This document shows positions 8,349-34,934 of a stretch of DNA of 34,934 bases, one piece after another. Below the pieces are notes generated by a model. That model saw nothing but the letters and a program-made list of their open reading frames with translations, made no database searches and was not told the origin of the DNA. A program made the position numbers and the translations under genes. Every line of letters begins with the position of its first letter. Within the stretch, counting starts at the first letter, position 1. Source of the stretch: Coriobacteriia bacterium (GTDB lineage: Bacteria > Actinomycetota > Coriobacteriia > Anaerosomatales > Anaerosomataceae); the NCBI GenBank assembly GCA_030655755.1, contig JAUSOQ010000055.1:1-34934 (forward strand). The letters are read 5' to 3'.

Positions 8349-8377
8349 AACAGCGTCGCTTTAAGGGGGTAGGTCTG

Positions 8378-9243: not shown

Positions 9244-9258
9244 CCCTTCTGCGCACTG

Positions 9259-9286: not shown

Positions 9287-9310
9287 GTCATGTCCGGGGT
9301 CCCGATAAAC

Positions 9311-9326: not shown

Positions 9327-9358
9327 TTCTAAGGCTCTGGAATGGGAGCGTTAGGGTC

Positions 9359-9814: not shown

Positions 9815-9827
9815 CGCTGGTCTCCTG

Positions 9828-12776: not shown

Positions 12777-12778
12777 CT

Positions 12779-13393: not shown

Positions 13394-13695
13394 CAGATCT
13401 CCCGACTCTTGTAGTGGTAACGCTTCGGGCGTGCCGAGAATGCGCGCATCCGGCGCGCGAACTCTAAGATCGACGTGCCGCTCTGCTTGGTCACGACGAT
13501 CCATACCGCGAAGAGTATGAAGGCCGCCGTGCCGAACGCCGCAGGGATCCCGGCGAGCGGCAACAGTATCGCGAGCGCGACAAAGGCGACGGCGGCGGCC
13601 ACATAGATGTAGGGGCGTTCGCGGATCCCGATGCCGGGCAGAAGCTCGCGGCCGGAGGCCTCACGACCAGGGATGATATAGGCGTCTTGTTCCAT
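13393..13695 (-). CDS. PrgI-family (VirB3-like) membrane protein
   Basis: The 100 residues have an ATG preceded by GGAGAG. A short N-terminal stretch ends in IRERPYIYV. Two hydrophobic segments (about 30-47 and 49-69) and a basic tail (RRMRAFSARPKRYHYKS) follow. This is the layout of PrgI/VirB3 channel components, which sit directly before VirB4 in Gram-positive conjugation operons, as here. Confidence 0.78.
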   Translation of the reverse strand: MEQDAYIIPGREASGRELLPGIGIRERPYIYVAAAVAFVALAILLPLAGIPAAFGTAAFILFAVWIVVTKQSGTSILEFARRMRAFSARPKRYHYKSREI

Positions 13696-13705
13696 AGCTT
13701 CTCTC

Positions 13706-13945
13706 CTACCAGATCGTCGTATAACCGTAGTAATGGGCGACAGCCATGACGAGGCCGCTTATCGCCGTCAGGACCGCGGCGGCCCCGAGAGTGCGCATGA
13801 GACGTCGTTTGAGCATCGGCGTGTCGGCCCCATCGGTATCAGCCAGCACCGCCGCCGCCGTGAAGAGCGCACGGAGGACGAGTGCGCCGATCGCGAGGCT
13901 TGAGACGGCTACCGCCATTGTGTTCAGGAGTCGCACGGCCTCCAT
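13706..13945 (-). CDS. Small two-pass membrane protein of the T4SS
   Basis: The 79 residues have two hydrophobic segments (about 8-35 and 52-72) around a short charged loop with DTDGADTPMLKRR. The gene lies one base after the VirB6-like stop and ten before PrgI, in the middle of the T4SS operon. Size and position fit a minor channel or pilin-like component, but no named family is recognised. Confidence 0.65.
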   Translation of the reverse strand: MEAVRLLNTMAVAVSSLAIGALVLRALFTAAAVLADTDGADTPMLKRRLMRTLGAAAVLTAISGLVMAVAHYYGYTTIW

Positions 13946-13946
13946 G

Positions 13947-14861
13947 TCAGCGGCCTCTCACAGCGCCGGAGACTGCGGTGGAAAGTACGTTGACGGTCGC
14001 AGACCCGGCTCCGGTCGCTTGGCCCTGGTGCATGATGCTTGTGAAGAACTTCGGCGCTTTGATCGTCACCGCGAGCATGGCGAGCTCGAGGATGATGAGA
14101 CCGATCGGCCGGAATGCGGTCGGCCATGAGGCCGGAGCCACCTCAAGGAAACCTTGGTTGAAGACGAACCATAAAGAGAGCCTGAGCATGAAGACCTGCA
14201 ACACCTGAGTGAAGGTCAGCAGTAGGACGTTTCGGACCCATGCGTTCCACATGCTCCGGTCAGGACTCGCGTAGTTCACGGCGAAGAGCGGGCCTGCGAT
14301 GCACATCAGAGCCAGCTCGATCGAGCGCTTCGCGATCTGAAAGACGACAACGCCCATCATGGTGATAATCACCAGCATGACCAACCCGCCCCACAGGCGC
14401 TGGTCTATAAGCGCAGTGGGGGCGCCACCGACGGCCGGTAATAGACCGGTGACGATGTAGTTTTGAGCATTGGTCACCGCAGCCGCGTCGATCGTGACGG
14501 TTAGGTCGATACCGAGTAGATCGCTGTTCATGGCGGTGCCTATCGCGATCGCTTGGCGCACCAGGATCGGCACGACCCATACCGCCGCCGCCGCACTCAC
14601 TCCACGCAGGGTGAACGTCGAGAGCGGTAGCTCTTCTTCGGTGCCAATCCCGTACATCATGACGCCCCGGTAGAGCAGGACCAATATGAGGGCGGCTGTC
14701 GCGAAGACCTGCACGTATGTCGTGGCACGGGTGATGGGTTCCCATGACAGCAAGCTCGTCGTGAAATCGGCGATCGCGGTGAGGATGGGCGTGAAGATCT
14801 CGACGTACTTGTTCGCAAGATCGGCGAGGAACGTGAGCGCCCATTCGGTGATGACGTTCAT
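13947..14861 (-). CDS. VirB6/TrbL-like polytopic channel protein
   Basis: The 304 residues have about six hydrophobic segments (near 30-45, 52-66, 88-106, 157-178, 186-200 and 243-263) and a Gly/Ala-rich C-terminus. Features include ANKYVEIFTPI at the start and SPDRSMWNAWVRNVLLL near residue 203. This is the pattern of TrbL/VirB6 inner channel proteins of Gram-positive T4SS. It lies between the pilin-like gene and PrgI in the expected gene order. Confidence 0.78.
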   Translation of the reverse strand: MNVITEWALTFLADLANKYVEIFTPILTAIADFTTSLLSWEPITRATTYVQVFATAALILVLLYRGVMMYGIGTEEELPLSTFTLRGVSAAAAVWVVPILVRQAIAIGTAMNSDLLGIDLTVTIDAAAVTNAQNYIVTGLLPAVGGAPTALIDQRLWGGLVMLVIITMMGVVVFQIAKRSIELALMCIAGPLFAVNYASPDRSMWNAWVRNVLLLTFTQVLQVFMLRLSLWFVFNQGFLEVAPASWPTAFRPIGLIILELAMLAVTIKAPKFFTSIMHQGQATGAGSATVNVLSTAVSGAVRGR

Positions 14862-14868
14862 CAGTCGC

Positions 14869-15189
14869 TCACTGGAAGTAGCTTGTGATCGCGGCGAGCA
14901 GACCCGAGACCGAGAGCGCGACTGCGAAGCCGATCGCCACGCCTCGCATCTTCCGGTTCGTGGCCGCCTTCTCGTGTTCGTCAGACGCGAAGAACGACTT
15001 GACGAACAGGACCAGGAGCACGAGCGCGGCTATCGCCGCCAGCAATCCCGTGATAATCACCGTCGCATCCGCGATGAGCTCTTTGGTGCCCGTGACGAGC
15101 GACGTGTCGGCGAGTCCTGCCGCGTAGGCAGATGCCGGCACCATCATCATCATGGCGGCCAGGGCCGCCGTTTTACCGATCCGCTTCAT
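14869..15189 (-). CDS. VirB2-like pilin candidate with signal peptide
   Basis: ATG 15189 is chosen because AAGGAAG lies just upstream; the longer frame to 15414 overlaps VirD4. The 106 residues begin with a signal peptide (MKRIGKTAALAAMMMMVPAS, cleavage after AYA or AG). Two hydrophobic segments (about 39-64 and 82-102) separated by a charged loop with DEHEKAATNRK follow. VirB2-type pilins have this small two-pass form. It lies between VirD4 and the VirB6-like gene. Confidence 0.72.
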   Translation of the reverse strand: MKRIGKTAALAAMMMMVPASAYAAGLADTSLVTGTKELIADATVIITGLLAAIAALVLLVLFVKSFFASDEHEKAATNRKMRGVAIGFAVALSVSGLLAAITSYFQ

Positions 15190-15209
15190 TCGTTCTTCCT
15201 TTCTTTCGC

Positions 15210-15224
15210 GCGCCCGGAGGGCGC
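15210..15224 (-). promoter_or_regulatory. Hairpin between virD4 and the pilin-like gene
   Basis: GCGCCC-GGA-GGGCGC forms a 6-bp stem in the 64-base gap, about 20 bases before the pilin-like start. It may mark an RNA processing or stabilising point that sets pilin level apart from VirD4, or a weak terminator. Confidence 0.35.
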
Positions 15225-15253
15225 TCATGCAGTTCTTTATCGGCTTCGCGCCC

Positions 15254-17188
15254 TCACGGCACCAGCCGTCCAGTCCTACTTGTTTCCTCTCGCTTCCTGC
15301 CCGGCAGCCACACCGGTGGCTGCTCGACCGGATAACGGCGAAGCCCATCCTCGCGTTCTTTGAGGATGAGGGCTGTGGTGGTGGGGTCGGACAACCCGTA
15401 TTCTCTATTGGCACCGAGACGTGAAAGGTCCGGGGCCGGGAAGACAGCCGGGAGCTGACGGGTGCGTATCACGATCGCGCCGTCAGAAGGATCCCACCGG
15501 CGGATCTCGTCGGCCATGAGCAGCGGCCGACCGGCCAGGGACTCATTGCGTGAGCTTTGCGCACCCCGGTTCGGGTCGAGGGGGCTGAACATATCCACGC
15601 GCTGTGAGATCCCGCCGGAGGTCGTTTTGATCGTGTAGCGCCCCAGCATCTTCTCCAGCATCTCCGCTGTGGGCGGATGCGACGTCGAGAGGTAGATCCA
15701 TGTGTGGCAGTTCCCGAGGATCGTGCCGGATCCTTTGTTATACAGGGCCTCGATCTGATCGATGCCCTGGATCGCGAGCACGAACCGGATCCCCCGGCCG
15801 CGCGCCACGGTGAGCATCTGAGCAAAACCGGGGATCGCCGGGATGTTGCCGAATTCGTCAAGGATGAAGGTCACCCGGCGGTCCAACCTTCCGCCTCGTT
15901 CATTGGCGACCTCGATGAGCGTCTGATAGAGCTGCCGGACATAGATCGAGGCGAGCACGTTGTAGACCTCGCGCTCGTCGGGGATCACAAGGAAGACCGC
16001 CGTCGGGCGTTCCGCGACGGTACGCATGTCGTGCTGGGGGCGGTCTTTGTCGCCGCTCGTTACCGACGCGATGTTGGGATCTGCGAAGATCTGCAAGGCG
16101 GCGAGCGCCGACGTGAAGATTGATGCTTGTGTGCGCTCGCTCGCGATGCCCGCTGTGAGCCATGCGGCAGCAGCGGGGTGCGTCACCGACAGGGTGTCCA
16201 TCAGATCCGTGAGCGGGATCCGCTCGCGGAGCGGATGAGCGGGATCGGGTACCGGACGGCCGAGACGACCGAGCATCGTGTAGACCCCGTACAGGTGCTT
16301 GTGTTCGAGGTCCGGGGCCTCCAGGGCCACATAGAGCGCGACGGCAGCGATCGCGCCGGCGGCGGTCGTCGTCCAGAATGAATCACTTGTCTTCGGTTGG
16401 CTCGCACTGACGAGTGCGGTGGCGATCTCTTGAGCGGTCAAAGAGGCGGCGGCGGTATCGTCTCGCCCCGCCGCTTCCACCACCTTGTGGAGTGGGTTCC
16501 AGCCGTGCGATTTTGCCGGGTCGCGGAAGTTCATCGCGACGACATCGTATCCGCGCGCCTCGAGGTACGGCTTGCAGGAGAGAAAGAGCTCGCCCTTCGG
16601 ATCGGCAAGCACCATCGAATCACCGCCTCGGGCCAGTGCGTAGATCGTCTGGAAGACCATGCGGCGAGTCTTTCCTGAGCCGGTCGTGCCCAACACGAGC
16701 GTGTGTGTCTCATCGGCATCCAGACAATAGCGCTCCTTCCCGCCGACGATCTCCACCCCTAGTGCGACACCTGCGGTGGTCGGGTCGACCCCCGCAGGGT
16801 CCCACAGCGTCACCGAATCCCGCCGCTCCTTGTCTGTCTGGAAGCGTGCCGACCCGTACTCGCTCGCACCGGCAGCCGGCGGCCCATATTTACCGGCCGT
16901 GGCGCGACCCTTCGCCATGAGCATCGGCGAGGACGCGAACCAGGCGACGATCGCGGCTATGAGCAGCATGACGAGCGTGATGAAACGCAGACGCTCGTCG
17001 GTGAACGCGATCGCCCACGCCTCGGCGAATGGTGCTTGCCACCAAGCGACGAACGGTGCGGCAAGGCCGGACGGTGGGACCGTCTTCAAGTAGTAGAGCA
17101 ACGCCACGACGCGCGGGACCACGGCGGTGGCCAGGGCAAGACCGAACCCGAGGAACGTGAGCCGGCGAGCAAGATGCGGCCCTCTCAT
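15254..17188 (-). CDS. virD4: VirD4/TraG-type T4SS coupling protein
   Basis: ATG 17188 overlaps the Fic gene's stop by four bases; the upstream extension to 17230 is in the Fic gene. The 644 residues have two N-terminal hydrophobic segments (about 10-34 and 68-87) and the conserved YGSARFQT (111-118). Walker A is GTTGSGKT (167-174), followed by SMVLADPKGELF; Walker B is VTFILDEFGNIP (about 430) and the following IQGIDQIEALY. Coupling proteins bring the relaxase-DNA complex to the channel. The C-terminus is short and basic. It clearly belongs to the conjugation operon. Confidence 0.93.
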   Translation of the reverse strand: MRGPHLARRLTFLGFGLALATAVVPRVVALLYYLKTVPPSGLAAPFVAWWQAPFAEAWAIAFTDERLRFITLVMLLIAAIVAWFASSPMLMAKGRATAGKYGPPAAGASEYGSARFQTDKERRDSVTLWDPAGVDPTTAGVALGVEIVGGKERYCLDADETHTLVLGTTGSGKTRRMVFQTIYALARGGDSMVLADPKGELFLSCKPYLEARGYDVVAMNFRDPAKSHGWNPLHKVVEAAGRDDTAAASLTAQEIATALVSASQPKTSDSFWTTTAAGAIAAVALYVALEAPDLEHKHLYGVYTMLGRLGRPVPDPAHPLRERIPLTDLMDTLSVTHPAAAAWLTAGIASERTQASIFTSALAALQIFADPNIASVTSGDKDRPQHDMRTVAERPTAVFLVIPDEREVYNVLASIYVRQLYQTLIEVANERGGRLDRRVTFILDEFGNIPAIPGFAQMLTVARGRGIRFVLAIQGIDQIEALYNKGSGTILGNCHTWIYLSTSHPPTAEMLEKMLGRYTIKTTSGGISQRVDMFSPLDPNRGAQSSRNESLAGRPLLMADEIRRWDPSDGAIVIRTRQLPAVFPAPDLSRLGANREYGLSDPTTTALILKEREDGLRRYPVEQPPVWLPGRKREETSRTGRLVP

Positions 17189-17874
17189 CGTTCGAACCCT
17201 CGTGCCCCGAGGTCGAGGCCTGCGACGCAACGGGCATAGAGAAAGCCCAGCAGCTCGGTCTCATCGCCCGTCGTATAGTAGGCCGACAGAGTACGGTTGA
17301 ATGTCTCGAGATCCGCCGGCGGGATCGAGAGCATCCCGGCCCCGGCAGCGAGCATCAGGTGATTAGCGGCGAGCATCGCCGTCCGCTTGTTGCCGTGCCA
17401 GAAGAGCTGGGCGCGCATCGCTGAGACGGCAAAGCCCAATGCACGCTCGGTCACGCTCTCTCCCCCAAGCTCGAAGACCCGCGCGACCGAGTTCTCGTCA
17501 GGTGCGGGCGGACGCCACTCGGCGCCGCCGATGCCCACCGAGCCCGTCCGCCACTCGCCTGGGTCGAGGCTCATACCGAACACGACGCGGGCGTTCAGAC
17601 CGCGCACGAGTTCGGGCCCGAAAGCGTCGTCTAAGGAGCTCAACAAGAAGCGCCAAGCCTCGCGCAGATTGAGGACCACGGTCACGTCGTCGGTGGACAG
17701 CCCCGCCGGCACCATGCCATCGATGATCGTCAGCGTGTCAGGGAAGGTCACGTTACATCCCTCGAGCCGTGCGCCGTGCCATATATGCTCTACGAGTGTG
17801 CGGCGAGCGAGAAAAACGCTCTCCTCGCGGCTGAGCGCGTAGCGATCGCTCATGTGTGGGTGGCGGCCGCTCAT
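17185..17874 (-). CDS. Fic-fold protein with altered active-site motif
   Basis: ATG 17874 overlaps the previous stop by four bases and gives 229 residues. Residues about 35-80 resemble the inhibitory helix region of Fic proteins (ARLEGCNVTF). The Fic loop reads QLFWHGNKRTAMLAAN (156-171), where active Fic enzymes have HPFxDGN(K/R)R. The catalytic His is Gln, and the acidic residue is His. The anion-binding GNKR is kept. Active Fic proteins transfer AMP or related groups from a nucleotide to a target protein. With this motif the usual AMPylation chemistry is doubtful. Its place right before VirD4 suggests a conserved role in transfer, perhaps regulatory or as an exported protein, but this is inference. 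Confidence 0.8.
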   Translation of the reverse strand: MSGRHPHMSDRYALSREESVFLARRTLVEHIWHGARLEGCNVTFPDTLTIIDGMVPAGLSTDDVTVVLNLREAWRFLLSSLDDAFGPELVRGLNARVVFGMSLDPGEWRTGSVGIGGAEWRPPAPDENSVARVFELGGESVTERALGFAVSAMRAQLFWHGNKRTAMLAANHLMLAAGAGMLSIPPADLETFNRTLSAYYTTGDETELLGFLYARCVAGLDLGARGFER

Positions 17875-24398: not shown

Positions 24399-24401
24399 CG
24401 A

Positions 24402-24445
24402 GCGCTTAACGCTCGTTCAGGAAAGGGGGCCACCGTGGCCCCCTT
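24402..24445. repeat. 44-bp direct repeat copy A, with 19-bp palindrome
   Basis: Identical to 25990-26033. It includes the palindrome GGGGGCCACCGTGGCCCCC (24425-24443). The first relaxase codons (GTG GCC CCC) are part of this copy, and the second copy spans the relaxase stop codon, so the two frame the gene. Confidence 0.9.
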
Positions 24446-25997
24446 GGAGATTACGGCGAGGGTGAGTCCAGAAGTGACCGTGAGCAGCAACATCGTCATG
24501 AAGCTCAGCTTCAAGCCGGCGGGGTCAGAAGCCCATGCGGGCAACGTCGCCCATCTGCGTTACATCGGTACTCGGCCTGGGGTCGATACGGAGGTCACAG
24601 ACGCCGCGCTTGAACGCGCGGAGCTCAGCGACCTCTCAGACGATGAGGACTATCTGCGTTACATCGGTGAGCGCCCTGGCGTAGTGCGTGAGACAGCCGA
24701 AGGACCGGTGCTCCACGGACTTTTCGGTGCGTCCGGTGTGGCCGATGTCTCCCGAGTGCGGCAAGAGATCGGTGGTCTTGAACTCTCCCCCGCATATCGC
24801 ATGATCCTCTCGGTGCGGGAAGAGACGGCAGCGGCCGTCGGTCTTACCGACAAGGCCGCCTGGGAGATCTTAGTCTGTGAGCAGGCACCGACGTTCGCGC
24901 GTGGGTTGGGGATCCCGCTCCAGCGTCTCGGGTGGGTGGCTGCTCTTCACCAGGCCGCCGGTCACCCACACGTGCACCTGATCGCGTGGGACCGTGCGGA
25001 TAAGCCAAGAGGGCGTGACGTGGTGGAGAAACAGGCGCTCGTGGCCATGCGTGAAGAGCTCACGCGCGAGCTATGGAGGCCGGTCACCACCGAACTTGGT
25101 GCAGAGAAGGGTGGGATCCGCGACGCGTTGGTGCGCGGAACGCGGACCGAGCTCGCCGTCCTCACTGACCTCATGGGCTGGGAGAGGGGCACCGGGGCGC
25201 CGCTCTTGGACCGTCCGGCGACGCTGCCGATGCGCTCGGCTGAGGACCTGACGGCGATCGCGGCGGGTCTTGAGGAAGTCGCCTCGACGCTGCCCGGACA
25301 CGGCCGGCTGGTCTTGGCTTATATGCCGACCGAGACTAAAGATGCGGTCTCCCGTGTCGTGGACCTTTTGCTCGACGACCCGGCGAGTAGGGAGGCCGCC
25401 GATCGTTTCACAGCGATCGCGGCGGAGCTCGCAGGTCACCAGGCGCCCGCGCCCGAGAAGGTAGAGGCGGCTGCGGATCGGGCTTCCGCAGACCTTGGCC
25501 GAAGGGTGGGGCAGAACGTACTCGTTGCGGCCGAAGGTCTCGTGCAGGACCGTCTGCATGAGCGGGCGTGTCGGGCTGCCCCGGTGTTGCTGTCTCGTGG
25601 CGCGGATCCCGCACTCTGTCTGAGCGATCGCATCCGGGCGGCACGTGCGTGCGGCACTCTCGGAGTCTCTGAGACATCGGTCGTTGACTCAGCCACGAAT
25701 CGGCACGCAGGACCGGACGGACGGACGGTGATCGCTGCGGCCTGGGGCGAGGGGGCGGCACGGGAGCGTCTGGACGCAGGTGACGTAGAAGCCCTGGAAC
25801 GAGCGACGGGAGGAGACCGGCCTGCGCCGGTCATGGCCGGTCTCGGGACGGCCGCGAGGCTGGCCAGGCAGGTCTACCGGGACCTCGATTGCGCTCACGC
25901 TGACAGCCGGTCTATTGTCCGCGCGAGGCGCGCGCGTGTACGTCCCCGCGATCGAGGGATCTGGCACGACGCTGAGCCTGGGCACGACCGCGCTTAA
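24435..25997 (+). CDS. MobL-family conjugative relaxase
   Basis: The listed GTG start follows GGAAAGG, but GTG 24462 is an alternative that better fits the family start. The longest form has 520 residues. IVMKLSFKPAG, then LRYIGTRPGV (41-50) and again YLRYIGERPGV (73-83), open the MobL domain. The three-His motif is HQAAGHPHVHLI (172-183), binding the metal for nicking. Arg/Glu-rich helices follow to about 250. The C-terminal half is less conserved, helical and rich in Ala, Arg and Glu. The relaxase nicks oriT, stays on the 5' end and is exported via VirD4. No helicase or primase domain was recognised. Confidence 0.87.
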   Translation: MAPLEITARVSPEVTVSSNIVMKLSFKPAGSEAHAGNVAHLRYIGTRPGVDTEVTDAALERAELSDLSDDEDYLRYIGERPGVVRETAEGPVLHGLFGASGVADVSRVRQEIGGLELSPAYRMILSVREETAAAVGLTDKAAWEILVCEQAPTFARGLGIPLQRLGWVAALHQAAGHPHVHLIAWDRADKPRGRDVVEKQALVAMREELTRELWRPVTTELGAEKGGIRDALVRGTRTELAVLTDLMGWERGTGAPLLDRPATLPMRSAEDLTAIAAGLEEVASTLPGHGRLVLAYMPTETKDAVSRVVDLLLDDPASREAADRFTAIAAELAGHQAPAPEKVEAAADRASADLGRRVGQNVLVAAEGLVQDRLHERACRAAPVLLSRGADPALCLSDRIRAARACGTLGVSETSVVDSATNRHAGPDGRTVIAAAWGEGAARERLDAGDVEALERATGGDRPAPVMAGLGTAARLARQVYRDLDCAHADSRSIVRARRARVRPRDRGIWHDAEPGHDRA

Positions 25998-26033
25998 CGC
26001 TCGTTCAGGAAAGGGGGCCACCGTGGCCCCCTT
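25990..26033. repeat. 44-bp direct repeat copy B, with 19-bp palindrome
   Basis: Same as 24402-24445. It contains the relaxase stop codon (25995-25997) and the palindrome at 26013-26031, which is flanked by AAA and TTT and so could also work as a terminator. It lies about 100 bases before parA. Confidence 0.9.
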
Positions 26034-26064
26034 TAAACTGCTTGCCTATTTCTATTTCTAGGTA

Positions 26065-26093
26065 TTGTAGAGTATTACGCGTTGTGCTAGCAT
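26065..26093 (+). promoter_or_regulatory. Promoter of the parA operon
   Basis: TTGTAG (26065-26070) and TAGCAT (26088-26093), 17 bases apart, lie in an AT-rich patch 40 bases before parA, which has a strong GGAGGAGG. Confidence 0.5.
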
Positions 26094-26132
26094 ATACACA
26101 AAAGGGGATGAAGCTTAGTGGAGGAGGATCCC

Positions 26133-26903
26133 ATGAGTGTACAAGTGGTCGCGTTCGTGAACCACAAAGGTGGCGTAGGCAAGACCACGTCTGTCGCCAA
26201 CATCGGAGCCGCGCTCGGGCGCGAAGGGAAGCGGGTCCTCTTGGTGGACCTGGACCCGCAGGCGTATCTCTCGAGCGCCGTGGGGATCCAGGTGGGCGAG
26301 GATGCCCCGAGCGTCTACGAGGTTCTGACGGGGGTGGTTGCGGCCGAGGGGGCCACCGTGGCCCCCTCGGAGTTCTACGACGTGTTGCCTTCGACACTCG
26401 CTCTCTCGCGACTCGAAGTCGAGTTCGGCGCGCACGCGGGGCGGGATCTCTTGCTCCGGCGCGCGCTCGAGCTCCCGCGAGAGGCCTACGATTGGATCCT
26501 GATCGATTGTCCGCCGTCGCTCGGGATGCTCATGTTGAACGCGCTCGCGGCGGCGACCGCCTACGTGGTGCCGGTCCAGACCGAGTACTTCGCACTCAGG
26601 GGCCTTGGGACACTCGAAGAGATCATCGAACAGGCGCACGACTACCTGAATTCAGCCCTTGTCCCGCTTGGGGTGCTTCCCACCCTCTACGATGGCCGGA
26701 AGAACCAACATTCAGATACGCTCGCCGAACTCAAGGAATCCTATGGCGAGCTCGTCTTGCCGAGTGTACGGATGAATGTCGCGCTTGCCGACGCGCAGAA
26801 GGCGGGCCGCGACATCTTCGCCTTCCGGGCGAACGCACACGGGGCCGAAGACTACGCGGCCGTGGCGCGCGAGCTCCTAGTGCGAGCCGAGGGGGGTGCG
26901 TGA
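26133..26903 (+). CDS. parA: ParA partition ATPase
   Basis: ATG 26133 follows GGAGGAGG. The 256 residues carry the deviant Walker A KGGVGKTT (11-18), the switch LVDLDPQAYLS and the Walker B strand ILIDCPPSLG. It belongs to the short type Ib/Soj-like class without an N-terminal HTH. ParA uses ATP to move plasmid copies bound by ParB. Residues about 73-79 (GATVAPS) are encoded by a copy of the 19-bp palindrome, which looks inserted between strands. The gene overlaps parB by one base (TGATG). Confidence 0.94.
   Translation: MSVQVVAFVNHKGGVGKTTSVANIGAALGREGKRVLLVDLDPQAYLSSAVGIQVGEDAPSVYEVLTGVVAAEGATVAPSEFYDVLPSTLALSRLEVEFGAHAGRDLLLRRALELPREAYDWILIDCPPSLGMLMLNALAAATAYVVPVQTEYFALRGLGTLEEIIEQAHDYLNSALVPLGVLPTLYDGRKNQHSDTLAELKESYGELVLPSVRMNVALADAQKAGRDIFAFRANAHGAEDYAAVARELLVRAEGGA
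26346..26368. repeat. Palindrome copy inside parA (candidate parS)
   Basis: GGGGGCCACCGTGGCCCCC with GA and TC outside it extends the arms to 11 bp. It is in frame and encodes GATVAPS. The same 19-bp core is at 24425, 26013 and 34062. Confidence 0.65.
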
Positions 26904-27865
26904 TGACGGCGGAGCTACCCAAGCGCACCCGGAAGGGCCTTGACGGTTTCGGTAAGAACGCGAGTCCGGAACAGCGTGAAGCGCGGCAGCGCGCGGCGCA
27001 TGAGGCCGTGATGCCGTTCCTCGTCCAAGGGAGGGACAACGTCGCGGCTGAGCTCCGGATCGACGAGATCGAGCCGAGTCCGAACAACTTCTTTGCGATG
27101 GAAGACATCGACGCGCTCGCGGCGGATATCGCCGAAGTCGGGCTCCTGCACCCGCTCGTGGTCAGGCCTCTCTCCGAGGATCCGTTGACCCATTACGAGC
27201 TTATTTCGGGAGAGCGCCGCTGGCGCGCCCTCCGCACGCTCGTTGACGCTGGTGACAAGCGCTTCGAGCGTGTCGGCGTGATGATTCGCCGGATCACCGA
27301 CGACCAGGCCGAGCATGCGCTGATCTCTGCGAACATGGAGGCGCGCGATCTTACTGTCGCCGTACGCATCGAAGCGATCGCGCGGATGCGGGTGATCGTT
27401 GGGCGAGAGAGGGCGGCGGGGACCGTCGAGGGGAAGACCGCCGATCTGCTCGCGACCCGGCTTGGGATGGCGCCGCGGCAAATCAAACGCTACGAGGCGA
27501 TCGCGAAGGCGGATGTCGGCATTATAGAGGCCGTGGACGCCGGGACGATCACCCTCCGTTCCGGTGTCGCTCTCGCAGGTAGGCCCGCCGATGTGCAGGC
27601 TCGCGCGCTCACTGAGCTCACGGCGGCAGAGAAGAAGCACACTGAGGACGAGGCGGCAGAGGTCATCGAGCGGGCAGCGCGTCCGCATGTCGAACGACAC
27701 CCGGCAGCAGGGCCCAGCGAGAAGGCCGTCAAGGCGCTCCGAGGTGCGGTCCGTGCTCTTGAGCGGATCCAACCATTCACGCTGGATGTGGAGTACCGTG
27801 ACGAGGCGCTGGCTCTGGCTGAGCGGGTCCTTGATCTCGTTCGGCCGATGGAGGATGGCCAATGA
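26903..27865 (+). CDS. parB: ParB-family centromere-binding protein
   Basis: The 320 residues have a ParB N-terminal domain (IDEIEPSPNNFF at about 52-63, then LHPLVVRPLS and the ELISGERRWRALR motif near 106), the nucleotide-binding part of this CTPase family. A central HTH region (TADLLATRLGMAPRQIKRYE) and a C-terminal helical part follow. ParB binds parS and spreads. It is coupled to parA by a one-base overlap and to the next gene by four bases. The C-terminus (about 270-315) may be the dimer domain. The repeated palindromes nearby are the best binding-site candidates. Confidence 0.92.
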   Translation: MTAELPKRTRKGLDGFGKNASPEQREARQRAAHEAVMPFLVQGRDNVAAELRIDEIEPSPNNFFAMEDIDALAADIAEVGLLHPLVVRPLSEDPLTHYELISGERRWRALRTLVDAGDKRFERVGVMIRRITDDQAEHALISANMEARDLTVAVRIEAIARMRVIVGRERAAGTVEGKTADLLATRLGMAPRQIKRYEAIAKADVGIIEAVDAGTITLRSGVALAGRPADVQARALTELTAAEKKHTEDEAAEVIERAARPHVERHPAAGPSEKAVKALRGAVRALERIQPFTLDVEYRDEALALAERVLDLVRPMEDGQ

Positions 27866-28950
27866 AGGCGTTCCTGCTCTGTGACCCGCTCTCATGCGGT
27901 GCCGTGTCTGCTGCGGTCGAGGGCGCAGCAGGTACCGTCCTCGCTGCCCGTGAGGGTGCAGACGCGGTTGCGTTGACCGCTGCACTCACAGAGGCCGCAG
28001 CGACCTCCTGTGACCTCGTCGTGATCGAGCCCGGTGCGTGGGACGCCGAGACCTACGAGATCGAAGACGCGGTACGGCGTCTGCGGACGTCGCGCGAGGC
28101 CGCGCGGATCATCGTCCTTCTTCCGGAAGGGACCGAGCCTGACGCCTTCACCACCGAGCTCGTAGGTATGGGCATCTATGATCTCGTGAGTGTTCCGCCG
28201 GCAGAGATCGGGTCCCGGCTGTCTGCGGTGATCGCCGGACCTGCCACCTATGCGGCTGCGTCGCGGTGGCAGGTCCGCAAGGCAGCGCCTGCGTCTCGGA
28301 GGCGTGATGCGCGCCCTTTTCGTCCTTCTGTGGCCGCAGCCACAGAGACGATCGTGGAGCGCATTGTGGGGTGTGCGGCGATCGCTGTCGCTGGTGTCGG
28401 TCCGCGCGTGGGTACGACACACCTGGTCGTCTCGGTAGCGCGGTTCCTTGCGCATGAGGGCCACGCGGTAGCCTGCGTGCTCATGAATGAGGCCCACTGG
28501 AGGGCGATTGCGGGCGGATACGAGGGCGTCGCGATCGACGAGACGCGTTCGCGCTTCGAGCTCGGGGGCGTCGCCTACTATCTCGGAGCCCCGAGCCACG
28601 TGGCCGACTATCACTATGTCGTCCTCGACTTCGGTGTCTATGAACCAACGCATGCGATCGAGTTCAAGCGATCTCCCGTGCGCTTGCTCGTGTCCGGGTC
28701 GGCCGAGTGGGATCTGGCAGAGACCACCGAGCTCTTGCGCGCGGATCCGGCGACGCTCGGGTATACGGTCTGCTTTGCACTGACGTCTCCAGACCTCTTC
28801 GCCTACATCGCCGAGAACATGGGCGGGGCACGTGCCGTCGCCATTCCCTACAACCCGGAGTGGGGGCAGGTAGAGGGGGTAGCGTCGGTCATGGCGGAGC
28901 TCGTCGGAGACGTGCTGCCCCGCGTCACCCGCAAGGGTGGGCGCTCATGA
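27862..28950 (+). CDS. CpaE/TadZ-like protein with degenerate ParA-type ATPase fold
   Basis: The 362 residues start at the ATG overlapping the parB stop. The first 125 residues have a receiver-like pattern (SCDLVVIEPGAW, then ARIIVLLPEG and GIYDLVSVPP). Residues about 172 onward follow a ParA/MinD fold: AIAVAGVGPRVGTTHLVVSV sits where Walker A (KGGVGKTT) belongs, then YHYVVLDFGVYE at the Walker B place. The Lys residues of Walker A are gone (PRVGTTH), so ATP hydrolysis is doubtful. CpaE/TadZ proteins position secretion or pilus machines at the cell pole. Here it may link partition to the surface proteins encoded downstream. Confidence 0.72.
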   Translation: MKAFLLCDPLSCGAVSAAVEGAAGTVLAAREGADAVALTAALTEAAATSCDLVVIEPGAWDAETYEIEDAVRRLRTSREAARIIVLLPEGTEPDAFTTELVGMGIYDLVSVPPAEIGSRLSAVIAGPATYAAASRWQVRKAAPASRRRDARPFRPSVAAATETIVERIVGCAAIAVAGVGPRVGTTHLVVSVARFLAHEGHAVACVLMNEAHWRAIAGGYEGVAIDETRSRFELGGVAYYLGAPSHVADYHYVVLDFGVYEPTHAIEFKRSPVRLLVSGSAEWDLAETTELLRADPATLGYTVCFALTSPDLFAYIAENMGGARAVAIPYNPEWGQVEGVASVMAELVGDVLPRVTRKGGRS

Positions 28951-29234
28951 CCAGGCGAGCCCCCACGCTGCTCCGCGCGATCGAGCTTGAGGAGACCGCG
29001 CGGGCGGCAGAGACCGCGCGGGCGGAGAGAGGGGCGGCGCGGAAGGCCGCCAAGAAACGGTTCAGGAAACATCCGGTCGTTCGCGCGGGAGGCGCGGTCG
29101 GGTGGTGGCTGGGGACGCTTGCAGCGACGCTCGTCGCGATCGTGGTGCTCAATCTCGTGTTCAACCCGGACAGCGAGTTCAGCCGGCAGGTGGTCGGGTT
29201 CTTCGAGAGTCTACGGAATGGAGGCTTGTGGTGA
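28947..29234 (+). CDS. Small single-pass membrane protein
   Basis: The 95 residues start at the ATG overlapping the previous stop by four bases. A basic, Ala/Arg/Glu-rich cytoplasmic helix (about 8-42) is followed by one hydrophobic segment (about 51-71, LGTLAATLVAIVVLNLVF) and a short outside tail ending in FFESLRNGGLW. It could connect the cytoplasmic CpaE-like protein to the surface proteins, but no family is recognised. Confidence 0.7.
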   Translation: MTRRAPTLLRAIELEETARAAETARAERGAARKAAKKRFRKHPVVRAGGAVGWWLGTLAATLVAIVVLNLVFNPDSEFSRQVVGFFESLRNGGLW

Positions 29235-30127
29235 GACGCAAATATGTGAGGGGGGCATTCACCGCTCTGCTTGCAGCCGCGCTTGTAGCGCCGGCAGCAG
29301 CGTATGCGGCGGCGGCTGTCACACGGAGCGTGGAGGGCGTGGTCCAGACCGATGACACCCTTTTCCCCGCAGAGGTCGAAGAAGAGGGGGTCACCTACAA
29401 GCTCGGCGAGATCGAGTGGGTCGAGCGGATCGTGACGGACCGAACGGTCCGTCATTCGGTGGCCTATGATTTCGGCGCACAAATCGGTGAAGTCGAGATC
29501 CCGGAGACGTGCGCCACCACCTACTACGATGCCGCCAGCAACACGACCGTGCGGGCGGTACTCACCTTCGCGCGGGTGCAGAAGGCCGCAGCGACCATTG
29601 AGGGCGAACGTGAACTGTTCACTCACGTCTCGTATGACCCCAAAGCCTACGAGCTTGTAGACGCCCTCTGGTTGCCCTACGGCGCTCCCGCACCGTTGTG
29701 CAGCGGCGTCGAAGTGGAAGCTCCCCTTTTGGATGCGCTCCACTACGACCCTACCGTCTACCACGTTACGTCGTCAGAGTGGATCAGCCAAGCGACGCTT
29801 AACGGGGACAGGACCGAGCGGGTAGCAGAATACACCGTCTCAAGGCGGGCGGTGCAGGAGGAGGTTGTCTACTCAGGAATGGTCGCGCTCCCCGATGTGC
29901 TGGTCTTCGACGGCACGGCGACCTACGCACCACTGTCGTTGCCCGAGCGCGCCGAGCGCGCTGTCAGAGCAGCCGCCACGGTCGCGACGTCAGACCCGTG
30001 GTCTATCCTCCCCTGGGCGGCGGCCGGTCTTGCGGCGGGCACCGCCCTGTTGGGCGCGATCGTGTTCTTCCGGCGTCGGAAGCGGCGCTCAGACGACGAG
30101 GACGAGGAGGACGAGCATGAAGACTAG
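29231..30127 (+). CDS. Secreted, membrane-anchored surface protein
   Basis: GTG 29231 (or 29228) overlaps the previous stop. The 298 residues have a signal peptide (about 1-27, ending AAAYAAA). A beta-rich extracellular part with many Tyr, Thr and Val residues follows (about 30-245, including SVEGVVQTDDTLFPAEVEE). Then come one hydrophobic segment (about 257-275) and a cytoplasmic tail of basic then acidic residues (RRRKRRSDDEDEEDE). No LPxTG site is present. I recognise no named family. Its last 11 bases overlap the CAP-domain gene. Confidence 0.72.
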   Translation: MRRKYVRGAFTALLAAALVAPAAAYAAAAVTRSVEGVVQTDDTLFPAEVEEEGVTYKLGEIEWVERIVTDRTVRHSVAYDFGAQIGEVEIPETCATTYYDAASNTTVRAVLTFARVQKAAATIEGERELFTHVSYDPKAYELVDALWLPYGAPAPLCSGVEVEAPLLDALHYDPTVYHVTSSEWISQATLNGDRTERVAEYTVSRRAVQEEVVYSGMVALPDVLVFDGTATYAPLSLPERAERAVRAAATVATSDPWSILPWAAAGLAAGTALLGAIVFFRRRKRRSDDEDEEDEHED

Positions 30128-30881
30128 GTTGCTCCTCACACGATTAGCGATAGTGGTCTTCGTGGTGGCCCCGGCACTCGCCTGTGCGGCGTATGCAGGA
30201 ACCGGGATAGTGCGAGCTGCGCATGAGACGCAGACCGCACAGGTCGAACTCGCCACGGCCCGAGCAGAAGGTGAGCTCGTGGCGACGCAGGCGATGGCCG
30301 CGCGTAAAGCAGAAGAAGAGATCGCGCGGCAGAAGGCCGCAAAGGAAAGGGCCGCCCGAGAAGCAGAGATCGAGGCTGCGGCCGTCAAGGCCGCAGAAGA
30401 AGAAGCTGCTCGCCTTGCTGCCGAAGAAGTGGCGCTCGTAGCAGACGCAGGGACGGCGGCCACGATCTCCGGGACGTCAGGGACCTCTACGGGAGGCGGC
30501 ACGTCGTCTCCCGCTCCGGCACCGGCCCCCGCTCCGGCACCCGAGAGTCCGGTCGTGGTCACCTCCTACAATGTGGCGATCGTGCGCGCGATCAACCCGA
30601 ATGCCACCTATGACAGTGCGCTTTCTGCCTCATGTGCTGCTCATGCGAAGAAGATGGCCCTTGCGGGGTCGATCTTTCACTCAGGAATTGATGGGCGTTT
30701 TGAGAGTGTTGGTCAGATGGGCGGGATCGGCTCCGGAGCCCTCCTTGGGTGGACCGCAGAAATCATCGGTGGGTTCCATGCCGGTCACGTGTCTCAGCTC
30801 AGAACCGAATGCACGCGTGTCGGTGTCGGAGTCGTGACATATAAAGGTGTTTTGTGGACAGTCGCACAGGGGGTCTTGTGA
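30117..30881 (+). CDS. Surface CAP (SCP/PR1-like) domain protein with coiled coil
   Basis: The 254 residues start inside the end of the previous gene. A signal or anchor segment (about 8-28) leads to a long Ala/Glu/Arg-rich coiled coil (about 36-107), a Ser/Gly and then Pro/Ala linker (about 115-143), and a CAP-like domain (about 150-254). That domain carries ASCAAHAKKMALAGSIFHSG, ESVGQMGG, GGFHAGHVSQL and the closing TYKGVLWTVAQGV. CAP domains occur in secreted proteins of diverse function. The domain is a short version. A role in adhesion or envelope interaction during mating is inference. It overlaps the next gene by one base. Confidence 0.75.
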   Translation: MKTRLLLTRLAIVVFVVAPALACAAYAGTGIVRAAHETQTAQVELATARAEGELVATQAMAARKAEEEIARQKAAKERAAREAEIEAAAVKAAEEEAARLAAEEVALVADAGTAATISGTSGTSTGGGTSSPAPAPAPAPAPESPVVVTSYNVAIVRAINPNATYDSALSASCAAHAKKMALAGSIFHSGIDGRFESVGQMGGIGSGALLGWTAEIIGGFHAGHVSQLRTECTRVGVGVVTYKGVLWTVAQGVL

Positions 30882-33800
30882 TGAGAGTCTTCCACTCGAA
30901 GCGCGCGGTTGCACTAGTGCTCGCGTTCGTCCTGGCGTTCGCAGGACCGGCGGCGGCGGTCGCCGAGACGATCACGACCGGGGCCGCCGGGACTTCCTAC
31001 TACGAGTACCACAACCTCTCAGGGGGCGTGTGGAGCGATCTCCTGACCCCACCACATTGGACCGGCAGCGGCAACGTCGCCTTCTGCCTGGAGCAGACGG
31101 CGGACTATCCGCTCGGCGAGACGTATGGCGTGTTCAATCCCTTGAGTGTGTTCAGTACCCGGACACGCAATGGTCTACAGGCGATTACTTTCTACGGCTA
31201 TCCCTATAGCACCGGCGGTTTCTCGGCGGTCCAAGCTCGCTATGCGACCGCGAATGCAATCCGAGCGTGGCTGAGCGAGTCGGCAGGGGTCGGGTACGCG
31301 TTCATGAATCTCTCGGGCTACGACCCCAACAACTCGGCGACTTGGACGAACGTCAGGCCGGTCTCATCGTCTTACAATGCACTCTTCCGGTGGACGCTCA
31401 GCCTCGTCGCATATGCCCGTGCGCAGCAATACCCGGCACACGCGGTCACGAGTTCGCCGAACCCGGTGACGCTCGTCGCCGATCCACCGTATGCCCACCT
31501 CGTGGGCAGCACGACCGTCGTTTTCAACAACCTGAACGGCTCTTATACGTACAGCGTGCCTGCCGGGGTCACAGTGACCGGTTATACCGGCAGCAACGGC
31601 GACGTTCTCACGCTCTCGGTACCGCTCACTCCGGAATGGCTCGGCCAGACCGTGACGCTCACTCTCACGGGCACAGACAGTCGCGTTCCCGCGAACCTCT
31701 ACTGGTACTCGCCTAGCTATAACAGCTCGCTCCAACGATTCCTCGTGCCCACCAGTCTCGCATTCGCTCCTGCTGCGGTAGGTCTGATAACCGTCGGTAC
31801 CGGTGAGGGGGCGATAGACCTCCGCAAGACCGATGAATTGGACGGCTCTGCCGTTGCCGGTGCGCTCTTCCAGCTCAACTGGGGGACCATAGAGGTCGCC
31901 CAAGGCACCACCGACGCGAGCGGGCAGCTGCTGTTCGACGAGATCGCGCCGGGCACCTACACCATCTTCGAACTCGCCGCGCCAGCCGGTTACCTTCTGG
32001 ATCCGACGGTACACACCGTCGTCGTCCCTGACGGCCCGGCGGTCCTGCTCCGGCTGACGAACGAACCGGCCATGAGACCGGTCGAGGTCATCAAGACCGG
32101 CGAGGCGGGCGAAGCACTCGCCGGGGCCGTCTTTGAGGTCCGCGATAGTGGTGGGGCCCTCATGGACACACTCACGACTGACGCCACAGGGCGCGCCCGA
32201 AGCATCCCGCTAGACTTTGGCAACTACACCCTCGTCGAGATCGTGGCCCCGGTAGGGCACGTGCTCGATCCGACGCCGCACCCCTTCACCACCGCGCGGA
32301 CGAGCCCGGCGGTGGTGGTAGTAGCTCTCGACAACGAGAGGATCACCGGCCGAGTCCGGATCATCAAGGACAGCGACGGTGTCGCCGGGGCCCTGCTCGA
32401 AGGTGCCACCTTCGAGGTCTTCGCCGATGACGGCTCGACCGTCCCCGTCTGTGAGCTCGTGACCGATGAGAACGGAGAGGCCACGAGCGACCTGCTCGAG
32501 TACGGCGGTTACTATGCCGTCGAGACTGTGGCACCTATCGGCCACGTCTTGGATCCGACGCCGCACCCCTTCGTGATCCACGAGCAGGACGAGCTCGTCA
32601 CGCTCGAGATCACCGACCCGATCATCAGGGGTCGGGTCCACATCATCAAGCGAAGCGCCGGGGTCGATAACCCAGGACTAGAGGGTGCCGTCTATCAGGT
32701 CTTCCGATCCGCAGACGCGTCCCCGGCGGCGTCTTTCGAGCCGACGGTGACACTCGGTCCCGTCTGTGAGCTCGTGACCGATGAGAACGGGGAGGCCACG
32801 AGCGACCTGCTCGAGTACGGTGTCTACTACGCCGTCGAAACGATCGCCCCGGTCGGCCACGGTCTCGATGAGAGCCATCGGTATTTCGAGGTCCGTGAGG
32901 ACGATGCCGAAATCCTTTTCGAGCTTGAGGATTCCTTGCTCAAGATCCACCACGGTGGCGTGCAAGTCCGTTACCGCAACGTATGGGACGGCACCGAGAT
33001 TGCCCATGCGTGGGGCTATAACGCGGAGGTGGGCAGTGCGTATCTGCCGTGGCTGGCGGTGCTCAACTCACCGGGGTACACGACCAGAGACCCCTACCTG
33101 CCGTGGACCGCGCCGGGAGCCACCGCCGCTCAGGCGGCAGGAAGGCCCATCGACGGTTTCATCTACGTTTCTGCCGACTATCCGGCGGAAACCGAGCTGA
33201 TCGACGGCAAACTCACCGTCACCTACTGGTACAAGCGCACCATTGATGGTAGCTGGTCGCTGGTAGGCACCGGCGATGATGGACTGTCCACACTCACCCC
33301 GCAGGTCCGAGAGACGTTCGGGCTACTCTCCGATTCCGAGCTCTACGCGCGGTTGCAGGATGCTAAGACCGTCAATCCCGACGTCGTGGGCTACCTATCG
33401 GTGCCCGGCACCGATCTGCACGAGCCTGTGGTGCAGACCACCGACAACCTCACCTACCTCAGCACCGGCGCACTGGGCGCGCCGGACCCGCGCGGGGCGA
33501 TCATGATGGACTACCGTTCTGATCGTTATGTCGGCTCGCAGAGCCGGATGACGGTCCTTCACGGTCACAACATGCGCGATGATTCGATGTTCGGTCTCCT
33601 GGCCTCCTATGGCGACCCGGACTTCTGGTCCGCGCATCCGTTCATCCAGTACATCGACGCGGCAGGGCGTGGCGGGACGTGGCGAGTGTACTCCGCTCGC
33701 CTGTCCGACGGCGCAGACGATGTCTTCACCTTCCCGACCAGCGTCTCCTACGCCGAACGCGCGCAGGCGTACGCGCACTCCTCCGTCCTCGATCCGGGTT

Positions 33801-33898
33801 TCTTGCCGGATCCGGACGGTCGCACGCTCACACTCTCGACGTGTGCCTATCACGTCGAAGACGGTAAGTTCCTCGTTCACGCGCAGCTCGTCGAATGA
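30881..33898 (+). CDS. Large surface protein: thioester-like domain, four CnaB repeats and C-terminal class B sortase
   Basis: ATG 30881 overlaps the previous stop; the total is 1005 residues. A signal peptide (1-29) leads to a thioester-like domain (about 30-300). Cys69 is in VAFCLEQ, but the usual TQxA is YATANAIRAW, so the Gln is Ala. Four CnaB (SpaA-type) repeats follow at about 309-395, 398-480, 487-580 and 583-690. Repeats 3 and 4 share near-identical DNA (from CELVTDENGEATSDLLEYG), a recent duplication. After a linker (690-800) comes a sortase-B domain (about 810-1005) with His896 in LHGHNM and Cys988 in TLSTCAYH. The expected Arg is Lys996. There is no LPxTG motif and no C-terminal membrane segment. 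Adhesin and sortase in one chain is unusual. Confidence 0.87.
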   Translation: MRVFHSKRAVALVLAFVLAFAGPAAAVAETITTGAAGTSYYEYHNLSGGVWSDLLTPPHWTGSGNVAFCLEQTADYPLGETYGVFNPLSVFSTRTRNGLQAITFYGYPYSTGGFSAVQARYATANAIRAWLSESAGVGYAFMNLSGYDPNNSATWTNVRPVSSSYNALFRWTLSLVAYARAQQYPAHAVTSSPNPVTLVADPPYAHLVGSTTVVFNNLNGSYTYSVPAGVTVTGYTGSNGDVLTLSVPLTPEWLGQTVTLTLTGTDSRVPANLYWYSPSYNSSLQRFLVPTSLAFAPAAVGLITVGTGEGAIDLRKTDELDGSAVAGALFQLNWGTIEVAQGTTDASGQLLFDEIAPGTYTIFELAAPAGYLLDPTVHTVVVPDGPAVLLRLTNEPAMRPVEVIKTGEAGEALAGAVFEVRDSGGALMDTLTTDATGRARSIPLDFGNYTLVEIVAPVGHVLDPTPHPFTTARTSPAVVVVALDNERITGRVRIIKDSDGVAGALLEGATFEVFADDGSTVPVCELVTDENGEATSDLLEYGGYYAVETVAPIGHVLDPTPHPFVIHEQDELVTLEITDPIIRGRVHIIKRSAGVDNPGLEGAVYQVFRSADASPAASFEPTVTLGPVCELVTDENGEATSDLLEYGVYYAVETIAPVGHGLDESHRYFEVREDDAEILFELEDSLLKIHHGGVQVRYRNVWDGTEIAHAWGYNAEVGSAYLPWLAVLNSPGYTTRDPYLPWTAPGATAAQAAGRPIDGFIYVSADYPAETELIDGKLTVTYWYKRTIDGSWSLVGTGDDGLSTLTPQVRETFGLLSDSELYARLQDAKTVNPDVVGYLSVPGTDLHEPVVQTTDNLTYLSTGALGAPDPRGAIMMDYRSDRYVGSQSRMTVLHGHNMRDDSMFGLLASYGDPDFWSAHPFIQYIDAAGRGGTWRVYSARLSDGADDVFTFPTSVSYAERAQAYAHSSVLDPGFLPDPDGRTLTLSTCAYHVEDGKFLVHAQLVE

Positions 33899-34542
33899 GA
33901 CCACAGACGGGTCGGGTGAAGGGCCCTAAGACAGCCCGTAGCGTCGCGGCTCGCCCACAGGGAGAAAGCCTGTGGGCGGGCGCGCGGCTCGCCTGCGCAT
34001 CCGTCCTTGCTCTCGTGCTTGTGCTCTCGTGCGGGTGCGCATGCCACCCGCAGAGCTCGCCGGGGGCCACCGTGGCCCCCTCTGCACCGATGGTGGGCGA
34101 GCTCACGGCGGCCGAGGTCGTTCGCGTCGTGGATGGGGACACCGCTATCGTCGTACTGGGCGATGGGACCGAAGAGCGTGTCCGGTTCATCGGGATCGAC
34201 ACGCCCGAGGACACGAGCGAGGTAGAGGAGGGCGGGCCAGAGGCTACCGCGTATACAACAGCAGCGGTCGAGGGTGTGACGGTGTTCCTCGAGCTTGATG
34301 TCGAAGAACGCGACAAATATGGTCGTCTGCTCGCCTACGTGTGGCTCGAAGAGCCGGCGGATGCAAGCGAGGCTGAGGCTCGCGCGAAGATGCTCAATGC
34401 GCGGATCCTGCTCGATGGGTACGCGCACCTTATGACCATCCCGCCGAACGTCGCCTACGTGGATTACTTGAGAACGTACGAGCGCGAAGCCCGCGAGGCC
34501 TCGGCGGGGTTGTGGGCGCGGAATGGGGACGATGCTTCATGA
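33895..34542 (+). CDS. Secreted or lipid-anchored thermonuclease (SNase family)
   Basis: ATG 33895 overlaps the previous stop by four bases. The 215 residues begin with a basic stretch and a hydrophobic signal (about 26-48) with a possible lipobox around Cys46. Residues about 70-210 form a staphylococcal-nuclease domain: VVRVVDGDTA, RFIGIDTPE with Arg97 and Glu105, and DKYGRLLAYVW with Arg144. This matches the catalytic Arg-Glu-Arg set. It would cut DNA or RNA outside the cell. GATVAPS (about 57-63) is encoded by a copy of the 19-bp palindrome. It follows the large surface protein in the same operon. Confidence 0.88.
   Translation: MRPQTGRVKGPKTARSVAARPQGESLWAGARLACASVLALVLVLSCGCACHPQSSPGATVAPSAPMVGELTAAEVVRVVDGDTAIVVLGDGTEERVRFIGIDTPEDTSEVEEGGPEATAYTTAAVEGVTVFLELDVEERDKYGRLLAYVWLEEPADASEAEARAKMLNARILLDGYAHLMTIPPNVAYVDYLRTYEREAREASAGLWARNGDDAS
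34062..34080. repeat. Palindrome copy inside the nuclease gene (candidate parS)
   Basis: The 19-bp core GGGGGCCACCGTGGCCCCC again, in frame and encoding GATVAP in the spacer between signal segment and catalytic domain. It is about 7.7 kb from the parA copy. Confidence 0.65.
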
Positions 34543-34934
34543 TCTTAGGGACCGTTGACGGCACCGAGCTCGAGTACGGCGAGGGCGACTTCACACTCAG
34601 TACCGGCGAGGCGATGAGCACCGCTGAGATCGTGGCGCTCGATGGTGAGGGTGGGGTCGATTGGCTCGAAGAGAGTTATCGCCGATGGTTCTACGACAAC
34701 CAGGATGGGATCGTAGCGTCCGGGGCCGCCCTTACCCCTTACGTAGCGCTGGCGGATCCAGAATGGCGGGCGCAGCGCCTTTCGGACGCGATTCAGTGGC
34801 AGGTGCTCCGTGGTGCGCGAGTGGAGTCTCGTGAGAGGGGCAGCGCGGTCCTCGTGTTCGGGCGGCGGGTCGACCACCTCACGCACTTCATCATCGCGCT
34901 CTTCACCTGCGGCATCTGGGTGCCGGTCTGGATC
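34539..34934 (+). CDS. N-terminal part of the 156-residue junction-spanning membrane protein
   Basis: ATG 34539 overlaps the nuclease stop by four bases. The frame is open to the window end and continues at base 112 in the left copy. The N-terminal 110 residues are soluble, acidic at first (GTELEYGEGDF), with a Trp- and Tyr-rich middle (WLEESYRRWFYDNQDG), and lead into the membrane segment described at 1-186. No named family. It closes the operon. Confidence 0.75.
   Translation, partial: MILGTVDGTELEYGEGDFTLSTGEAMSTAEIVALDGEGGVDWLEESYRRWFYDNQDGIVASGAALTPYVALADPEWRAQRLSDAIQWQVLRGARVESRERGSAVLVFGRRVDHLTHFIIALFTCGIWVPVWI
34824..34934. repeat. Terminal direct repeat, right copy (circle overlap)
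   Basis: Identical to bases 1-111; see there. Removing one copy gives a 34,823-bp circle. Confidence 0.93.

Follow-up and report, generated by a model that had tools for sequence, protein, structure and literature searches.

An overlapping operon of nine genes

The stretch of DNA analysed here, called the window in what follows, is the complete 34,934-nucleotide contig JAUSOQ010000055.1 (C43) from the draft genome, 2.13 Mb in size, of a Coriobacteriia bacterium (GCA_030655755.1), and our subject is the set of nine plus-strand genes that runs from parA through parB, a gene for a CpaE-like protein and four genes for membrane and surface proteins (genes 4 to 7) to a nuclease gene and an unnamed gene 9 at the contig junction (Table 1). 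All eight junctions between these genes are overlaps, of 1, 4, 4, 4, 11, 1, 4 and 4 nucleotides in order, lengths that rest on the start codons we picked and that would be larger with the longest open reading frames, which begin earlier in several of the genes. A sigma-70 promoter scan of positions 23800 to 34934, which is blind to other promoter types, returned a single promoter-like site, on the minus strand, against an average of 1.2 in shuffled sequences, and a terminator scan of the same region returned four terminator-like sites, every one of them within a gene, against 4.2 in the shuffles. Since such sites are no commoner than in shuffled sequence, nothing above chance splits the operon. 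An RNA switch was considered as well and rejected, as the window holds no Rfam RNA match. The packed arrangement from parA to gene 9 is thereby confirmed, an earlier note on this DNA having described nine overlapping or almost abutting genes undivided by a terminator. Its first two genes form a partition pair of the usual make-up, a Walker-type ParA and a ParB_N-type ParB encoded in one operon. The AT-rich stretch at 26031-26132, between a palindrome and parA, is a likely promoter region, and the sigma-70 scan made no call there.

Table 1. Features of the operon and of the transfer genes in the window
Feature	Position	Strand	Basis and remarks
Type IV secretion system (T4SS) arm: NlpC/P60, VirB4-type ATPase, VirB3-like, TrbL, VirB2-type pilin, coupling protein	9828..17230	-	Pfam; same arm in relatives
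MobP3-family relaxase gene	24435..25997	+	Directly upstream of operon; NCBIfam NF041499 174 bits, cut-off 150; equal position in 5 relatives
Palindrome GGGGCCACCGTGGCCCC upstream of parA	26014..26030	strand-neutral	Other copies: over relaxase start, inside parA, inside SNase gene
parA, canonical KGGVGKTT ATPase	26133..26903	+	Pfam AAA_31 E 2.7e-48; PHROG ParA E 3.7e-53
parB	26903..27865	+	Pfam ParB_N E 1.3e-13; PHROG ParB-like E 1.4e-37
CpaE-like protein: receiver-like N-terminal domain and lysine-less P-loop domain	27862..28950	+	No family match; alignments
Gene 4, small single-span membrane protein, charged N-terminal part	28947..29234	+	One hydrophobic segment, 54-72; relatives
Gene 5, putative ectodomain protein: signal-like start, C-terminal span, basic-acidic tail	29231..30127	+	Hydrophobic segments 6-24, 262-280
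Gene 6, putative secreted CAP-like protein	30117..30881	+	CAP resemblance by eye only; relatives
Gene 7, surface protein: thioester-like N-terminus, 4 SpaA domains, class B sortase domain	30881..33898	+	
Gene 8, SNase-type nuclease, outside conserved core	33895..34542	+	Pfam SNase E 8.2e-17
Gene 9, unnamed protein	34539..34934, on across contig junction to base 186	+	157 residues read across 111-base overlap

The lysine-less third protein and the surface genes

The protein encoded between parB and the surface genes has a degenerate Walker A motif, GVGPRVGTTH, from which the lysine is absent, and all 18 CpaE-like proteins aligned share a lysine-less P-loop of the form G-x5-G-[TAVSC]-T. The chromosomal CpaE proteins of the order, by contrast, carry KGGVGK and are encoded adjoining a CpaF-type gene in each of five genomes, the source genome among them, so that the lysine-bearing deviant Walker A of a TadZ/CpaE protein, as represented by these, is missing from the CpaE-like protein. 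The motor to which TadZ/CpaE proteins are linked is likewise missing, there being no PF00437 (T2SSE) match, and thus no TadA/CpaF motor, on the seven element contigs described below. No Pfam, NCBIfam or PHROG model matched the CpaE-like protein at E 0.01 and no PADLOC model at E 0.001, whereas chromosomal CpaE matches TIGR03815 at 3.3e-16, a value below that model's cut-off. A profile built from six CpaE-like sequences matched a CheB receiver (E 0.027), FleN and Soj, in each case weakly. Of the structure model only the receiver-like part was used, and this part, itself poorly modelled at a predicted local distance difference test score (pLDDT) of about 60-70, was matched by Foldseek to many receiver domains with probabilities of 0.97-1.00. 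Lactate dehydrogenases headed the Foldseek rows for the model and were discarded at a root-mean-square deviation of about 20, and matches to RecA and the signal recognition particle in a PDB search (query A12) were left unused on account of a tiny domain score. No match for the CpaE-like protein was found among phages and viral contigs, and a phage or viral origin is therefore rejected.

With so little profile similarity to chromosomal CpaE and no P-loop lysine, we do not file the protein in the TadZ family. As far as can be judged from sequence, its resemblance to CpaE is remote, and the CpaE-like proteins and their membrane partner appear to make up an uncharacterised family that none of the profile libraries searched has a name for. 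The earlier description of a CpaE/TadZ-like protein with a degenerate Walker A between parB and the surface genes is thus right as to position and Walker A. A TadZ-like mode of action may nonetheless be considered by analogy: in TadZ of Eubacterium rectale the receiver domain is described as atypical and the Walker A, of deviant form, as binding ATP for dimerisation, and the TadZ/CpaE proteins of Tad pili are placed with a surface appendage (PMC13170226, consulted in part), as the window protein would be, which differs from them in having no P-loop lysine, no CpaF/TadA partner on the element and no match to a CpaE model.

The surface genes that follow culminate in gene 7, whose product matches Pfam SpaA (E 1.1e-61) and Sortase (E 1.9e-9) as well as the SrtB model (E 1.2e-27, below its cut-off) and has no hydrophobic span close to its C-terminus. 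Class B sortases have His, Cys and Arg as catalytic residues. In gene 7 the His and Cys are kept and Lys replaces Arg in all seven sequences available, so that the His-Cys-Arg set is incomplete; a surface protein with its own C-terminal sortase domain altered in this way is possibly a self-acting or altered sortase. The N-terminus is thioester-like by eye, with the Cys present in 7/7 sequences and Asn at the position where Gln is expected, and matches no Pfam thioester domain. A comparable protein is the thioester adhesin encoded in the conjugation operon of pLS20, which is needed for efficient transfer, above all in liquid, and has a thioester-type domain at its N-terminus with putative Cna domains after it; gene 7 differs from it in lacking, by eye, the expected Gln and in possessing a C-terminal sortase domain, the pLS20 adhesin being not sortase-coupled according to the part of the report used here (PMC8092201). 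Gene 6 has no Pfam match. For gene 5 the structure model is poor (pLDDT 47.3), and no relatives were found on plasmids or in viral contigs.

Relatives of the operon and setting of the element

A search with the CpaE-like protein found it in 5 of 27 genomes of the family and 7 of 69 genomes of the order, both counts including the source genome; when 396 genomes from across the phylum were searched with it as a profile, the source genome was the sole match. The order thus provides six relatives (G014, G017, G021, G026, G040 and G066) and, with the window, seven loci; five of the relatives are metagenome-assembled genomes labelled Actinobacteria or Coriobacteriia. Searching the order with gene 5 recovered the same seven genomes and one more, G001. 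The earlier note had called for a survey of the same gene order in other elements, and the outcome is favourable: the succession relaxase, parA, parB, CpaE-like gene and genes 4 to 7 is complete in five of the six relatives, and in the sixth, G040, the contig begins at parA (gene 4 of this genome was missed by phmmer and is present in translation). Protein identity to the window is 28-31% for the CpaE-like protein, 31-44% for gene 4 (five relatives), 40-41% for ParA (the four relatives aligned), 46-48% for gene 5 and 54-57% for gene 7 (six relatives each), and since the same order is kept at identities of 28-57% the linkage is more than chance. The spacing in the six relatives is similarly tight, with 2 nucleotides between parA and parB, 4 between parB and the CpaE-like gene, an overlap of 8 between genes 5 and 6 and 3-4 between genes 6 and 7; genes 4 and 5 are separated by about 77-109 nucleotides in the relatives and overlap in the window. 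Beyond gene 7, phmmer found no homologs of genes 8 and 9 in the relatives' fetched stretches. The sequence comparison accordingly delimits a conserved core of seven genes, parA to gene 7, with the nuclease and gene 9 as apparent local additions; for gene 9 the PHROG matches are weak and to families without a known function.

The relatives also tell something of the kind of element concerned. The upstream region was read in four of them (G014, G017, G026 and G066), and in each a tRNA-Glu gene has a tyrosine integrase gene next to it, at a distance of about 10-14 kb from parA and in a common layout, from which we conclude that these four are integrative elements; G021 has an integrase at a similar distance from parA. 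A T4SS arm is found downstream on the opposite strand in G014, G017 and G026 and partially in G066. The window itself combines a relaxase, a coupling protein and a VirB4-type ATPase, the combination by which a conjugative element is recognised, and has ssb- and radC-like genes, named by eye, with radC homologs in the same place in the relatives. No tyrosine integrase is present on the window contig. Its first 111 bases (1-111) are identical to bases 34824-34934; furthermore, the terminal 141 bases of contig C42 equal the window's final 141, the first 141 bases of contig C57, reversed, equal the window's first 141, and a second copy of gene 9 and of the nuclease end lies on C42. Given these shared ends the element is either a circle of 34,823 bases or lies between C42 and C57, and the term plasmid, under which it had been introduced, is compatible with circular closure but not proven, since the ends also join the two other contigs and the relatives are integrated.

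A 17-base odd-length palindrome, GGGGCCACCGTGGCCCC, occurs in four exact copies, at 24426, 26014, 26349 and 34063, and on no other contig of the assembly. Odd-length palindromes scattered in this manner over an element resemble the KorB operators of RK2, and the repeat may be a candidate site for ParB or a repressor, one copy also covering the relaxase start. The link to ParB is a guess, since no such repeat, and hence no conserved parS, was found in the relatives' stretches.

Outside the order's elements the CpaE-like protein keeps other company. A profile search of 396 genomes of the class gave 21 matches, of which 15 had E below 1e-9 and the other six, weak and short (E 8.5e-5 to 6.8e-4), were excluded from the locus count. 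The 15 are the seven loci of the order, five in family f92 (L079-L083) and one each in G513, G730 and G743. In 14 of the 15 the next gene behind the CpaE-like one encodes a membrane-spanning protein, the spans being computed for ten of these and judged by sequence similarity for the remaining four, and the exception is G513, where ssb comes next. In G730 and G743 the single-span protein is followed by a SpaA protein, and in G513 (L084, minus strand 3392-17001) a coupling protein, TrbL, VirB3/VirB4, the CpaE-like protein, ssb and a SpaA protein are encoded in a row, with the CpaE-like gene frame-shifted between its two domains as assembled. In f92 the next protein has a span near residues 52-93, and a second span passes the threshold in three of the five, one being cut by a contig end. 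That this two-span protein represents a fusion of genes 4 and 5 is not claimed, the profile comparison having aligned just 32 columns, comprising the last membrane span and basic tail. The KGG-x-GKT-type motif of canonical ParA is absent from the fetched stretches of f92, G513, G730 and G743. On the Enterocloster plasmids, two of three having been read, a CpaE-like gene precedes those for a single-span protein and a class B sortase, with conjugation genes beyond, and on one of the plasmids (L053) it directly follows CAP and SpaA genes, with ParA about 16 kb away. Since homologs thus occur beside SpaA adhesins without an adjacent parA, the CpaE-like protein pairs with the surface set and not with partition, and its stable partners appear, from these gene neighbourhoods, to be the membrane protein and mostly also surface genes, parAB being an addition in the order's elements. 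The separation of partition and surface genes in relatives, named beforehand as a finding that would refute the earlier proposal, is hence seen outside the order and at none of its seven loci.

Readings of the operon

At the order's loci parAB is flanked by the relaxase gene on one side and by a surface module of five genes (the CpaE-like gene and genes 4 to 7) on the other, and this order is conserved. The reading that we favour, and to which we give somewhat less than an even chance, takes the genes for an operon on the transfer side of a family of conjugative or integrative elements from uncultured Coriobacteriia. It would express a mating-surface module with a TadZ-like organiser together with a partition pair by which the element is positioned for transfer. 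The product of gene 7 would then be an adhesin for mating or attachment, the CpaE-like protein, with its degenerate ParA fold, would act under the membrane with the small membrane protein to organise the site at which the adhesin, and perhaps also the T4SS, is assembled, and ParA and ParB would bring the element or its relaxosome into place for transfer. The linkage of the genes is observed, the co-localisation of their products is what we infer, and co-expression would couple DNA positioning and surface assembly, direct contact between the two being conjectural. Since the relatives are integrated in a chromosome, their par genes should be unneeded for ordinary segregation, which suggests that they serve transfer or the upkeep of the excised circle. 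The earlier idea, that plasmid position may be tied to a surface or mating structure, is supported in part: it draws support from the conserved parAB linkage, the relaxase upstream, the T4SS genes and the integrated state of the relatives, and is weakened by the pairing of the CpaE-like protein with surface genes.

Known systems lend this reading some precedent. StbA and StbB of plasmid R388 place the plasmid for maintenance and conjugation, and stbABC, like the window, joins the genes of a DNA-binding protein and of a ParA-type ATPase in a single operon, there beside the transfer origin; unlike the window it has no surface genes and no receiver-type protein, and StbA is not ParB-like in sequence, as far as the portion of the report drawn on here goes (PMC3098194). 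ParA and ParB of the gonococcal genetic island take part in DNA secretion by a T4SS and, as might be the case in the window's relatives, the ParA/ParB of an integrated element there work with a relaxase, but no CpaE-like protein or adhesin operon is described in the part of that account consulted (PMC8716806). The Enterocloster bolteae plasmid module (L053) shares with the window a CAP protein, a SpaA giant, a CpaE-like P-loop protein and a single-span protein, encoded in a row with a class B sortase before conjugation genes, and departs from it in that the CpaE-like protein has no receiver domain, the sortase gene is separate and ParA is distant. The parts are thus of known kinds and what is new is their combination with a lysine-less TadZ-like protein; among the titles and abstract openings listed by literature searches none describes this gene combination. 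In our judgement, the way in which DNA, channel and adhesive surface are brought together in Gram-positive donors is poorly known, and the seven-gene conserved operon offers a testable set for this question.

Several observations count against the favoured reading and have to be set beside it. Profile comparisons of the CpaE-like protein with chromosomal CpaE by hhalign gave weak probabilities of 16% and 9%, and the structure model as a whole is poor (pLDDT 48.7). In f92 the homolog lies in a chromosomal cluster with no mobile element evident, which by eye looks like a housekeeping cluster between dprA and trmFO that also includes comM, and four of the five loci, one of them cut by a contig end, have no surface protein seen alongside, the fifth (G470) being followed by a large surface-type protein. 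Finally, G001 has a 4-kb contig with a gene 5 fragment, gene 6 and part of gene 7 and no par genes.

Such observations leave room for a plainer account, in which the operon reflects economy only: parAB would stabilise the circular form, the surface genes would serve attachment, a promoter would be shared because both are used in the same phase of life, and the CpaE-like protein would serve the surface module alone. The occurrence of CpaE-like and surface genes without adjacent parA in G513, G730, G743 and Enterocloster, which makes the module independent of the pair, fits this account well and we regard it as a real possibility, if on the whole not a probable one, since the adjacency has been kept in seven loci despite the drift of the CpaE-like protein to 28-31% identity. 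It might also be proposed that the element is a simple plasmid whose gene linkage aids nothing but stability, the surface proteins being cargo for the host, for example in attachment to minerals or other cells. The ability of the contig to close on itself and the missing tyrosine integrase agree with this, but the same operon is found in relatives that have a T4SS arm and are inserted next to tRNA-Glu, and the order is shared with conjugation genes elsewhere, which renders it improbable. Still less credence is due to the notion that the CpaE-like protein is a remnant of a plasmid Tad pilus locus that has lost its motor genes and has little function now. Distant homologs on Bacillota plasmids do shortly precede TadA-type ATPase genes in the five stretches read, four of which have SAF-domain genes in the interval, and TadZABC and a ParA occur together on an element of Propionibacterium acnes (PMC3316620, in the section consulted); nonetheless, the CpaE-like gene is open and has the same neighbours in seven genomes, and the seven element contigs are devoid of a T2SSE ATPase.

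The transfer-side reading could furthermore be widened to a hitherto unnamed family of lysine-less ParA-fold proteins that, together with a dedicated membrane partner, mark the build sites of SpaA-type adhesins and conjugation machines in Coriobacteriia and some Bacillota, and that in the present elements also hold ParAB-bound DNA, thereby bringing DNA, channel and adhesin together at a single place in the cell. In this wide form we consider it unlikely.

Two further gene pairs of the window lie apart from the operon. At 569-2844 on the minus strand there is a type II restriction-modification pair, consisting of an EcoRI-like methylase and a GmrSD/HNH restriction protein, and at 8378-9243 a helix-turn-helix nucleotidyltransferase gene overlaps a second small gene, an arrangement that by eye is MNT/HEPN toxin-antitoxin-like.

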